This document shows positions 9,722 through 63,998 of a stretch of 64,000 nucleotides of DNA, piece after piece. Position numbers and translations under genes: made by a program. Below the pieces are notes generated by a model that worked only from the letters and a program-made list of their open reading frames with translations, made no database searches and had not been told where the DNA came from. Source of the stretch: Bryobacterales bacterium (lineage in GTDB: Bacteria; Acidobacteriota; Terriglobia; Bryobacterales; UBA6623); contig JAPOOG010000052.1 in NCBI GenBank assembly GCA_026713545.1, positions 1-64,000 of the forward strand. Direction: 5' to 3'. Every line of letters begins with the position of its first letter. The first letter of the stretch is position 1.

Positions 9722-9904
9722 TGGCCTGTATTTCTCACCACGTGGCGAGGCGAAGTGTGTGAGAGGGCCGTCAGGACGAGGCGCGAGCCGCTTGGCGCGC
9801 GCAGGTGTGCTTTGACAGTACATTGAGCACGGCAAGCAAGCGCAACGAAGTCCTGGCGGTCGTATCGTGTGCTTCGACCGTCGGGTGGTGAGAAATGCAG
9901 GCTA
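9722..9904 (+). repeat. A element copy 3 (subfamily I, 183 bp)
   Basis: Full-length copy running from TGGCCTGTATTTCTCACC to GGTGAGAAATGCAGGCTA. The arms pair along most of their length, with a small inner palindrome near the centre. It lies between the divergent DUF1080 and TIM-barrel genes, so it is in a promoter region rather than at a 3' end. Confidence 0.85.
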
Positions 9905-10999: not shown

Positions 11000-11710
11000 T
11001 CAAGGCTTCATATCGGAGATGTAGCATCCGACCGCCGTGGTGAAGCGCGGGGTGAACGATTCGCCCGCGAGAACCAACTGCAGGGCTTCCTCGAGGTCGT
11101 GCTTCGTCGGGCGCGGACGTACCTTTCCGAAATCGACCTGGCGGTCGTCGATCCGGCCGCGATAGGCCAAGCGTCTGCCGGAAGCAAATACCGCGGCCTC
11201 GGGTGTCACGCTGGCTCGAGTCAAGCCCACGAGCCGATGCTCCGGGTCGCGGAGCGCATCGAAGTCGTACCCGAAGTCCTCCAGGTGTTGCCGAATGGCG
11301 TCCGGCGTCTCGGCGGGGTTCGGATACACGAGCCAGAACCTCGCCCCTTGATCCGTGAACTCGGCCTTGAGCCGCTTCACCTCCGGGGCGTAACGGTTCG
11401 ATACCGGACAATCGACACTGCTGAAGATGAAGACGCTTGCCGGGGCGTCCATGTCCTCGAGAGGGGCGACCGATCGTCCGTCGAGGTCAAGCAACACCAC
11501 TTCCGGATCGGACCCGCCGCATGACAAGCTCATCAGCAGGCCCGCGAGCACCGACAGGACGATGTGAAGAGCGATTGTTAGCCTGTATTTCTCACCACGT
11601 GGCGAGGCGAAGTGTGTGAGAGGGCCGCCAGGACGAGGCGCGAGCTGCTTGACGCGCGCAGGTGTACTTGAAGGTACATCGAGCACGGCAAGCAAGCGCA
11701 ACGAAGCCAT
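11000..11710 (-). CDS. Redoxin-family lipoprotein with repeat-derived N-terminus
   Basis: The core (about 190 residues) is a thioredoxin-like redoxin: VFIFSSVDCPVSNRYAPEV holds the active-site Cys, and the C-terminus has the typical TTAVGCYI. The segment before it (IALHIVLSVLAGLLMSLSCGG) is a lipoprotein signal, yet no ATG, GTG or TTG lies where such a signal should begin. The frame runs on into A element copy 4. The nearest usable ATG (11710) is inside that element, and gives a roughly 45-residue repeat-derived leader. Either this leader is translated or the native start was lost by insertion. It pairs with the upstream cytochrome c/TPR gene. Confidence 0.7.
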   Translation of the reverse strand: MASLRLLAVLDVPSSTPARVKQLAPRPGGPLTHFASPRGEKYRLTIALHIVLSVLAGLLMSLSCGGSDPEVVLLDLDGRSVAPLEDMDAPASVFIFSSVDCPVSNRYAPEVKRLKAEFTDQGARFWLVYPNPAETPDAIRQHLEDFGYDFDALRDPEHRLVGLTRASVTPEAAVFASGRRLAYRGRIDDRQVDFGKVRPRPTKHDLEEALQLVLAGESFTPRFTTAVGCYISDMKP

Positions 11711-11760
11711 GGCGGTCGTATCGTGTGCTTCGACTGTCGGGTGGTGAGAAATACAGGTTG
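11579..11760 (+). repeat. A element copy 4 (subfamily I, 182 bp)
   Basis: Begins TAGCCTGTATTTCTCACC and ends GGTGAGAAATACAGGTTG. The inner arms 11624-11651 and 11689-11717 are clearly complementary (for example GCCGCCAGGAC with GCCATGGCGGTC), and a GTAC palindrome lies at the apex, so the whole element can fold as one hairpin. On the minus strand it has an open frame that merges with the redoxin gene. Confidence 0.87.
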
Positions 11761-11953
11761 GCTCCTTGCATGGTCCGGCGACTTGCATGCTGAGGTTCCC
11801 GCTCGGAACGATCCTTCCATCCGGGGGGCGGCCTTTTCGACGACGGTTTATCTCCCGTCGCAGCCGCGCCCTCAAGGCTGATTGTACGGGGCCTTTTTGC
11901 GCCAGGCAAACCCGTCCCGTCTGGCATCGGCAAACAGGCAAACAGAGTCGGAC

Positions 11954-24521: not shown

Positions 24522-24616
24522 TCCCGCCCCCGCCCCGCTACGCGGTGTGGATCATTCGAGCAAGAAACATCCGGATCGGCGTCAAGGCCGCTTGATCCGG
24601 ACGATGTTTCAGGTCA
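24514..24616 (+). repeat. B element copy 1 (103 bp hairpin repeat)
   Basis: Runs from CAGGCTAG to TTTCAGGTCA. A hairpin GAAACATCCGGATC (24564-24577) pairs with GATCCGGACGATGTTTC (24594-24610). Copy 2 at 62601-62696 shares the CCGCCC start, the GAAACATCC stem and the ATGTTTCAGGTCAG end. It lies between two convergent genes, and both stop codons (TAG left, TGA right) fall in its ends. Confidence 0.7.
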
Positions 24617-25132
24617 GCTTTCGAGTTCCTTGAAGATTTCCGGCAGGGGGACTTCGATCGCCGGACCATCGGTTCTCAACACTCCGTCTGTCACTTCCAT
24701 TGAACCGTCGCGGGTATGAGCCCATGCTCGCCGATTGCGGGGATTGATCACCCAACAGTAGGACACACCGAAGCGCAGGTAGTCTTCGATCCGTTCCCGA
24801 AGGTCCGAGTCGCGATCGTCCTTCGACAGAATCTCGATGCAGACAAAAGGCGGATTCGTGAAAACGAGTTCCGTCGGGCGATCGCCACGAGTGACACAGA
24901 TGTCAGGAACCCGATAGCGCGTCGGCGAAACTTGAATTCGTTGCTCGACGAACACGTGGACGCCGAGTCGCCGCCTGCGGACGTTCAGCCAAGCGGCAAG
25001 CTCCGTCTGTAGCTCACTATGGTCCCGTTCTCCCGCGCTACGCTCCCAGAGAATGCCGTCAACGTACTCTCGGTCAGGGCGGTAGCTCGTTGCCCGGTAC
25101 TCATGCACGGAGGTCAACGTTCCGCTCGGCAT
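24614..25132 (-). CDS. Uma2 family (DUF820) restriction-like nuclease
   Basis: 172 residues from ATG 25132 (MPSGTLTSVHEYRATSY). The fold is the PD-(D/E)XK type of Uma2 proteins: VPDICVTRGD (about 93), PPFVCIEILSKDDRDSDLRERIEDYLRFGVSYCWVI (about 108-145). The Asp and E-x-S residues of the active site are present. Uma2 proteins are common, mobile and poorly understood. Its TGA stop forms the end of B element copy 1. Confidence 0.85.
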   Translation of the reverse strand: MPSGTLTSVHEYRATSYRPDREYVDGILWERSAGERDHSELQTELAAWLNVRRRRLGVHVFVEQRIQVSPTRYRVPDICVTRGDRPTELVFTNPPFVCIEILSKDDRDSDLRERIEDYLRFGVSYCWVINPRNRRAWAHTRDGSMEVTDGVLRTDGPAIEVPLPEIFKELES

Positions 25133-52570: not shown

Positions 52571-52796
52571 TGGACTGCTTTTTTCACCAAGTGCGAGGTG
52601 AAGTGCGTGAGAGGGCCGTCAGGACGAGGCGCGAGCCGCTGGGAGCCGGCAACACGGCCTTTACGGTTCGCCGGCCGTCAGATATTTCTTCTGGAGCGAA
52701 TCAGTCTCCCGCCCATGGTTTTCACGAAACACGAAACACGAATCACGGCCTTTCTATCGCGTGCTTCGGCCTTCGGGTGGTGAGAAAGGCAGGTTA
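52571..52796 (+). repeat. A element copy 9 (subfamily II, 226 bp)
   Basis: Runs from TGGACTGCTTTTTTCACC to GGTGAGAAAGGCAGGTTA. The interior differs from subfamily I: ACACGGCCTTTACGG, a GCCGGCCGTC segment and a CACGAAACACGAAACACG run. The right outer triplet is the TAA stop of the DUF1501 gene. Confidence 0.85.
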
Positions 52797-57385: not shown

Positions 57386-57643
57386 TGACCTGCATGTCTC
57401 ACAACGTGGCGAGGTGAAGTGCGTGAGAGGGCCGCCAAGTCGAGGCGTGAGCCGCTGGGTGCCAGCAACTCGGCCTTTAAGGTTTTCACGAATCACGGCC
57501 TTTATGGTTCACTGGCCGTCAGAGATTACTTCTTGGAGCGAACCAAACCCCACCAATGGTTTTCACGAAACACGAGACACGAGACACGAATCACGGCCTT
57601 TTATCGCGTTCTTCGGCCGTCAAGTGGTGTGATGTGCAGGCTA
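57386..57643 (+). repeat. A element copy 10 (subfamily II, 258 bp)
   Basis: Runs from TGACCTGCATGTCTCACA to TGTGATGTGCAGGCTA. The interior has two copies of ACGAATCACGGCCTTTAT (near 57487 and 57586), with a CACGAGACACGAGACACG run before the second. The right outer triplet is the TAG stop of metX. It stands between metX and metW. Confidence 0.85.
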
Positions 57644-62607: not shown

Positions 62608-62696
62608 GTTTTTCCTCCGCCCGCGTGCGGATCATACAAGCGGGAAACATCCGAACCCGTGTCAACGCCGTTTGGTCAGGAGGATGTTTCAGGTCA
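62601..62696 (+). repeat. B element copy 2 (96 bp hairpin repeat)
   Basis: Starts CAGGCTGG and ends TTTCAGGTCA, with the stem GAAACATCC (62644-62652) and GGATGTTTC (62682-62690). It shares more than half its sequence with copy 1 at 24514-24616. The right end holds the TGA stop of the HtrA gene, so elements A12 and B2 together fill the gap between two convergent genes. Confidence 0.7.
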
Positions 62697-63998
62697 GAAG
62701 CGCCCCTTGTCCTGAGGCAGGCCGCCGGCCAGGTAGAGCGCCGTCCATGCGAATTGCTGGTCTGGGTTGCGGCTCGGAATACGCCGCATCACCTTGACGA
62801 CAACGTCATCACCGGGCTTGAGGTCAGCCTGGATGCCTCGGACATCATCAATCGAGGCAACCGGCTTGCGGTTGATCATCACGATGATGTCGTTGGGCTG
62901 AACTCCGATATCATCGGCGAACGATGCCGGGACCACGGATGTGACGAGAACTCCGTCGGACTCCTCGAACGCAAGCTCTTCGCGCTGCGAGCGAGTCAGT
63001 GAAGTCACCTCGATACCGAACATGACTTCCGTCTCTTCGGCGCTCTCTTTCTGCTCGTTGATGTCGTAGCCGAGTTCTTTGGCGAAGAGCACTGAGCGGT
63101 CGGCAATCTCGACGTCGAATGTGTTTCTCTTCCCGTCTCGAATCACGACAATCGGCGTTGTCGAACCGACCTCTTGCGCGGCGACCACGCTGATGAGCTC
63201 ATCGCCGTTCTTGATGGGCTTGCCGGCAATCTCGACGATCACGTCTTCAACCTTGAGGCCCGCTTTCTCGGCCGGTCCGTCTTCTCTCACCTGAGTCACG
63301 AGAACACCGCCGTCATCGGCGCCGAACGAGCGCAGCAGCGCCGGCGGCTGCTCTCTGCTGAAGGTGATGCCGATCGAGCCTCTTCGCATCTTGCCGTGAC
63401 TGATGATCTGGTTGTAGACATTCACTACGACTTTCGAAGGCATCGCGAACCCGAGGCCTTCCGAGCCTCCGCTGCGAGAAACGATCGCCGTGTTCACGCC
63501 GATCAACTCGCCGCGGATGTTCAGCAACGGCCCGCCGCTGTTGCCCGGATTGATGGCCGCGTCGGTCTGTAGAAAGCGTTTGAACTGGCCCTGCTGGGAC
63601 GAGTCGACCTCGCGCGCCTTGGCGCTGATGATCCCTACCGTCACTGTTTCCTCATAGCCGAAGGGCGAACCGACGGCGATTGCCCAATCCCCGACCTGCA
63701 CCGCGTCGGAATTCCCGATCGGGATGGCGGACAGTGGCTTGTCTACGTCGATCTTGATGACCGCAAGGTCGGTTTCGCGATCGGATCCGATCAGTTTCGC
63801 ATCATGCAGTTCTTGGTCGGCTCCGTTATTGAAAATCCGGACTCGAATGCGGTCCGCATTCTGGATGACGTGATGGTTCGTGATGATATAGCCGTTTTCA
63901 TCGACAATGACGCCCGATCCTTCTCCCGGGCGTTGTCGCCGCGGAAAGCCTTCGTTTCCGAACGGACCAGGAAAGCCGAAGAAGCGCCGGAACTCCTC
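62694..63998 (-). CDS. HtrA/DegP-type serine protease (partial, start beyond window)
   Basis: At least 434 residues; the N-terminus lies right of the window. The visible part opens EEFRRFFGFPG, then the protease domain with all three catalytic residues: His in NGYIITNHHVIQ, Asp in GSDRETDLAVIKID and Ser in NPGNSGGPLLN. Two PDZ domains follow (VTQVREDGPAEKAGLKVEDVI and LVTSVVPASFADDIGVQPNDII). It is a periplasmic protein-quality-control protease and chaperone. DegP and DegQ types cannot be told apart from this part alone. The TGA stop lies in B element copy 2. Confidence 0.93.
   Translation of the reverse strand, partial: EEFRRFFGFPGPFGNEGFPRRQRPGEGSGVIVDENGYIITNHHVIQNADRIRVRIFNNGADQELHDAKLIGSDRETDLAVIKIDVDKPLSAIPIGNSDAVQVGDWAIAVGSPFGYEETVTVGIISAKAREVDSSQQGQFKRFLQTDAAINPGNSGGPLLNIRGELIGVNTAIVSRSGGSEGLGFAMPSKVVVNVYNQIISHGKMRRGSIGITFSREQPPALLRSFGADDGGVLVTQVREDGPAEKAGLKVEDVIVEIAGKPIKNGDELISVVAAQEVGSTTPIVVIRDGKRNTFDVEIADRSVLFAKELGYDINEQKESAEETEVMFGIEVTSLTRSQREELAFEESDGVLVTSVVPASFADDIGVQPNDIIVMINRKPVASIDDVRGIQADLKPGDDVVVKVMRRIPSRNPDQQFAWTALYLAGGLPQDKGRF

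Follow-up and report, generated by a model that had tools for sequence, protein, structure and literature searches.

The redoxin-like lipoprotein gene of the window, by which we mean the whole 64,000-nucleotide stretch of Bryobacterales DNA analysed here, raises the question of where its translation begins and what part an adjoining repeat, the A element, plays in this. According to the original prediction the lipoprotein signal has no start codon at its front, its frame runs into the element and the nearest ATG lies about 45 codons earlier, and either the element now supplies the start together with a peptide leader or the gene has been disabled by the insertion.

Candidate starts of the redoxin gene

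The first two of these statements agree with the DNA, since no ATG, GTG or TTG is found directly ahead of the signal and the minus-strand frame is open from 11000 to 11941, including its passage through the element (Table 1). The third is correct in that ATG 11710 lies in frame within the element, but it overlooked ATG 11788, which is in frame upstream of the element. The complete series of in-frame starts upstream of the signal is TTG 11941, TTG 11875, ATG 11788, ATG 11710, TTG 11701, TTG 11695 and GTG 11686, after which further ones occur only within the signal itself (GTG 11551, ATG 11533 and TTG 11527). GTG 11551 was rejected as the start of an exported protein, as it would leave about 10 residues up to the Cys, with no charged residue and no SD. 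The protein is here named redoxin-like, both of its Pfam scores being under the curated cut-offs (AhpC-TSA, E 2.2e-5 and 24.8 bits against 26; Redoxin, 19.5 bits against 26.6), and relatives of it were found in 59 of the 61 genomes searched at E values up to 0.001.

Table 1. Positions of the redoxin gene, the A element and associated features in the window.
Feature	Position	Strand	Remark
Redoxin (AhpC/TSA-like) lipoprotein gene	11000..11788	-	from the presumed native ATG; 262 aa including the 60-codon insert
Lipoprotein-type signal region IALHIVLSVLAGLLMSLSCGG	11515..11577	-	judged by eye
Target-site duplication, redoxin side	11578..11581		TTAG on the plus strand
Outward TIR end facing redoxin	11582..11598	-	SD-like GGTGAGAA kept; ATG changed to ATA; not in the redoxin frame
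A element, 176-bp MITE	11582..11757	- (as the redoxin frame reads)	ends CCTGTATTTCTCACCAC / GTGGTGAGAAATACAGG
Target-site duplication, upstream side	11758..11761		TTGG on the plus strand, one mismatch
Presumed native ATG start	11786..11788	-	upstream of the A element; conserved in the element-less sister species

The in-frame insertion and its alternatives

The window comes from a draft genome (G000) of 5.6 Mb and 170 contigs, whose nearest relative among the genomes compared is the sister species G001. The redoxin proteins of the two are 96% identical, and at the same locus G001 lacks the element and shares the ATG, placed there 14 codons before the signal (N-terminal frame MPISGLCKACKEPTLALHIVLPVLAILLMSLSCGG, also given as MPISGLCKACKEPTLALHIVLPVLAILLMSLSC). 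In the window the N-terminus reads MQVAGPCKEP, followed by 60 inserted codons and then by the signal, the frame behind the element being LTIALHIVLSVL. The insert and its 4-bp duplication add up to 176 + 4 = 180 nt and the redoxin frame is therefore kept, with the additional codons placed between ATG 11788 and the signal. When the flanks are joined by script, a 9-nt in-frame indel is the sole difference in length from ATG to signal between the two species. That the insertion is in frame and open is unsurprising, since the commonest insert length is divisible by three and the frame concerned, one of six in the element and the only one mostly open, is free of stops in 31 of the 51 copies of 174-177 bp; by our own estimate the chance of an in-frame, stop-free insertion is very roughly 1 in 5. 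The original prediction would have been refuted by orthologues without the element that show a start codon at the same place, such as a non-canonical codon in use, and G001 comes near to this, since it does have a start, but one that is an ordinary ATG lying 14 codons upstream. The redoxin relative of a further genome, G002, is uninformative on the start, being 41% identical and not located beside the TPR gene.

The reading that we favour, with moderate confidence and together with the TIR starts discussed below, is that the early codons of the redoxin gene received a 176-bp MITE between ATG 11788 and the signal peptide once the two species had separated, the element being probably mobilised by an IS1380-family transposase. 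The protein would now begin at its own ATG, read through 60 element-encoded codons and then enter the signal, and we infer that initiation takes place at ATG 11788, that the lengthened n-region is synthesised and that the product is still exported. The insertion probably adds sixty residues to the protein, and in this respect the predicted leader appears to be real, whereas the gene most likely still uses a start of its own. ATG 11788 is preceded by a weak SD (-4.3 kcal/mol), and the stretch from this ATG to the signal, which diverges between the species about as much as the upstream intergenic DNA and with changes that follow no codon pattern, may perhaps be untranslated.

It is furthermore conceivable, although we consider it unlikely, that since the insertion the gene is no longer translated or its extended product is mislocalised and not exported, the start having been parted from the signal, and that the frame has stayed open only for want of time. 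The redoxin copy of the element has only 2 private changes in comparison with 72 other copies, so that the insertion is young and has left little time for decay. In addition, the element RNA folds as one long hairpin (-79 kcal/mol, z -7.5), which may hinder redoxin translation, and the putative lipobox Cys is residue 90 when counted from ATG 11788, a distance unusual for a lipoprotein. The notion of a disabled gene is nonetheless in poor agreement with an intact frame, with an insert that preserves it and with a dN/dS of 0.168 against the sister species over 178 codons, similar to that of two neighbouring genes (0.149 and 0.226), even though the youth of the insertion makes dN/dS a weak test of decay and means that an intact frame proves little; the numbers are indeed compatible with function having been lost recently. 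No constraint is seen on the added peptide itself, since the redoxin copy differs from the element consensus by 4 synonymous and 7 nonsynonymous changes.

A start supplied by the element at its internal ATG 11710, with a 45-codon leader before the signal, is quite improbable. This ATG is in frame and the consensus element has an ATG at the same position, but there is no SD-like sequence in the 20 nt upstream, the site is found within the hairpin, and the TIR start that other genes use is ATA in this copy and belongs to another frame, for which reasons the TIR ATG was also rejected as a redoxin start. Least probable of all is that translation began, before the insertion as well as after it, at a non-standard codon heading the signal (CTC in the sister species, ATC here) and that the insertion severed this codon from its SD. 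AAGGAG (-7.8 kcal/mol, measured on G001) is found six bases ahead of the codon, where no standard start is present, the DNA ahead evolves at about the intergenic rate, and in orthologues from other genera the signal starts about equally far from the mature domain. Neither CTC nor ATC is, however, an established start codon, an in-frame upstream ATG is present in both species, and the two species differ by a whole number of codons in the spacing of ATG and signal. Judged from its sequence, the redoxin gene most likely did not obtain its start from the element and shows no visible damage, and insertion behind the native ATG is the simplest reading.

The element family and its outward ATG codons

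The A element is short, multicopy and without a transposase, and it has the further features of a MITE, namely TIRs, a target-site duplication and a probable partner IS with similar ends. The TIRs are 17 bp (CCTGCATTTCTCACCAC / GTGGTGAGAAATGCAGG) and the duplication is 4 bp (YTAG), as is also seen from the empty site in the sister species; at this length the two sides match by 67% on average and perfectly in 17 of 73 copies, compared with at most 26% at the other lengths tried. The 73 full copies measure 149 to 210 bp with a mode of 176 bp (32 copies), this count being restricted to complete copies (56 partial matches are omitted) and to 73 of 77 full ones, the remaining four being repeats or too near a locus end. 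G000 contains 338 near-consensus matches, while a reversed control pattern gave none. The element was found in 3 of the 18 family genomes searched, all of this genus, and the ATG-bearing element end has 765 matches in G001, 323 in G000 and 8 in G002, so that close species differ in how far the family has expanded. One further copy in the window (9724-9901) is located between a 3-keto-disaccharide-hydrolase-like gene and a TIM-barrel gene, both of which read away from it and have their own adjoining ATG.

An IS5-type partner, which the 4-bp YTAR duplication might suggest, was rejected, since the IS with matching ends belongs to the IS1380 family. At locus L226 of G001 (1070-2793) it encodes a transposase (NF033539, E 3.2e-115), has an end (CCTGCATTTCTCACCAG) like that of the element and is flanked on both sides by CTAG. 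Two copies of such an IS with element-like ends are present in G001, and a decayed relative carrying a TGA is found in G000 (loci L224, L225 and L226 in all). The IS1380-family IS is the likely mobiliser of the element, judging by a comparison that covered the ends alone.

Two other repeats were noticed in the window. One, CACGAAACACGAGACACGAATCACG, is found at 52708-52747 and 57549-57588 as well as at L032, L067 and L236, near element copies and upstream of genes, and the other is a dispersed 73-nt repeat whose two copies (24545-24617 and 62625-62697) are 81% alike.

Each TIR end reads GGTGGTGAGAA-ATG-CAGG and thus presents an SD-like site followed by an outward-pointing ATG. The SD-like stretch of the consensus end (GGTGGTGAGAAATGCAGG) pairs with the anti-SD at -11.8 kcal/mol, and no earlier start can serve, since in the consensus end a TGA stops this frame immediately upstream of the TIR ATG. 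At several other loci the outward TIR (SD-like GGTGGTGA, 3 nt, ATG) would supply the only start giving a full-length protein. An element-supplied start, one of the two options of the original prediction, most likely fails for redoxin but apparently holds for other copies, in another reading frame.

Our survey comprised 300 distinct ends flanked by 330 nt or more (260 from G000 and 40 from G001; ends with shorter flanks were left out), a non-random sample made up of the best matches and in part of ATG-bearing ends. The ATG is present at the TIR position in 226 of them. By a home-made dicodon score, which on its own training ORFs is below zero for 8.5% of in-frame windows and above zero for 15% of off-frame windows, 65 ends are followed by an outward-reading gene, 32 in the ATG frame and 18 and 15 in the others, and the frame is open up to the element edge in 28, 12 and 3 cases, respectively. 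In the third frame the TAG of the duplication usually acts as a stop, which makes 28 against 12 the fair comparison (28/40, p = 0.017; 27/39, p = 0.024, with GatB counted once). If the six genes lacking another near start are removed, 22/34 remain (p = 0.12); the frame bias is thus modest, and its signal stems from genes without another near start. No other start occurs in the first 36 codons of six genes in the ATG frame, two of which (L032 and L182) are putative genes, as compared with one gene in frame 0 and none in frame 1; in the frame 0 gene (L077) an ATG at codon 45 precedes the domain-like part. Genes with another start nearby (L045, L051, L082, L118, L124, L167, L169, L171, L172, L180, L198, L201 and others) were not counted as proof, and neither was L061, where a TTG at codon 40 precedes the Pfam domain.

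The TIR ATG appears to be the only start for full-length GatB in both species, for methylmalonyl-CoA mutase in G000 and for a sarcosine-oxidase-like subunit (our name) in G001. GatB begins within the element in G000 (MQPRYEPVIGLEV) as well as in G001 (MQSTYEPVIGLEV), its next in-frame start being at codon 52 and the Pfam domain GatB_N beginning at residue 8; among 17 loci compared, 13 have their own longer N-terminus before a KYEPVIGLEV-like motif, 2 are the element-start pair and 2 (L130 and L144) gave no motif match. The mutase has an element start in G000 (MQVRPDRSRTLSG), with the next start at codon 49 and the Pfam domain from residue 9, while in G001 and G002 its frame is without the element. 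The sarcosine-oxidase-like subunit, the 2Fe-2S domain of which begins at residue 8, has an element start in G001 (MQASEGFSFLLNG) and a native GTG start in G000 (MAQASPSEGFSFLLND), and no motif match was obtained in G002. L072, a deacetylase-like membrane protein by our own naming, with no Pfam match and a different front in the G001 copy, and L090 are probable further cases.

The redoxin copy seems to represent another fate, in which the frame is read through the element. A candidate second read-through case is L083 (G000:C91:49800-52900, minus), a PIN-domain gene that starts right at an element remnant and does so in the read-through frame, which is open for 678 nt upstream, through the remnant.

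It is possible, and we propose it tentatively, that the TIR is a portable initiation module, which rescues those right-frame insertions that sever a start, on which GatB has depended since before the species split, and which may explain a copy number in the hundreds in so gene-dense a genome. Mobile elements bring promoters and terminators to genes; if the present notion is true, short element ends also bring a ribosome-binding site and a start codon, in two species to a gene that is probably essential, and this would give transposons a direct route into protein sequences and be a reason why a high copy number can be tolerated.

Comparison with known systems

With bacterial MITEs the element shares its small size, lack of coding capacity, TIRs, 4-bp duplication, hundreds of copies and an IS of the same genus with matching ends. 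The IS1380-family IS of G001 has similar ends and CTAG flanks, but the element lacks a transposase. What seems to set it apart from bacterial MITEs in general is the outward SD-like site and ATG at both ends and their apparent use by neighbouring genes. The terms 'start codon' and 'Shine-Dalgarno' have no occurrences in the available text of a MITE review (PMC10969869), and the titles and abstract openings covered by a literature search contained no report of a bacterial MITE family supplying start codons. The Rickettsia palindromic elements (RPE), as far as that review text describes them, are palindromic and read in frame within a host protein, which is also true of the redoxin element. RPEs are however often found inside genes, whereas copies of our element, apart from cases such as that of redoxin, lie outside genes, and for none of the 73 full copies does the dicodon score show coding sequence of the same frame on both sides; moreover, the fusion is here N-terminal and genes using the TIR start gain only 3 to 4 residues. 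A precedent is MITEAba12 of Acinetobacter, whose authors note that start codons at its ends possibly allow fusion with neighbouring CDSs (PMC6382973). MITEAba12, as described there, has 9-bp duplications and is associated with ISAba12, as opposed to the 4-bp duplication and IS1380-family IS of the present element, and the possibility was derived from a consensus, whereas genes without another usable start and comparisons with the sister species here suggest a real replacement of starts.
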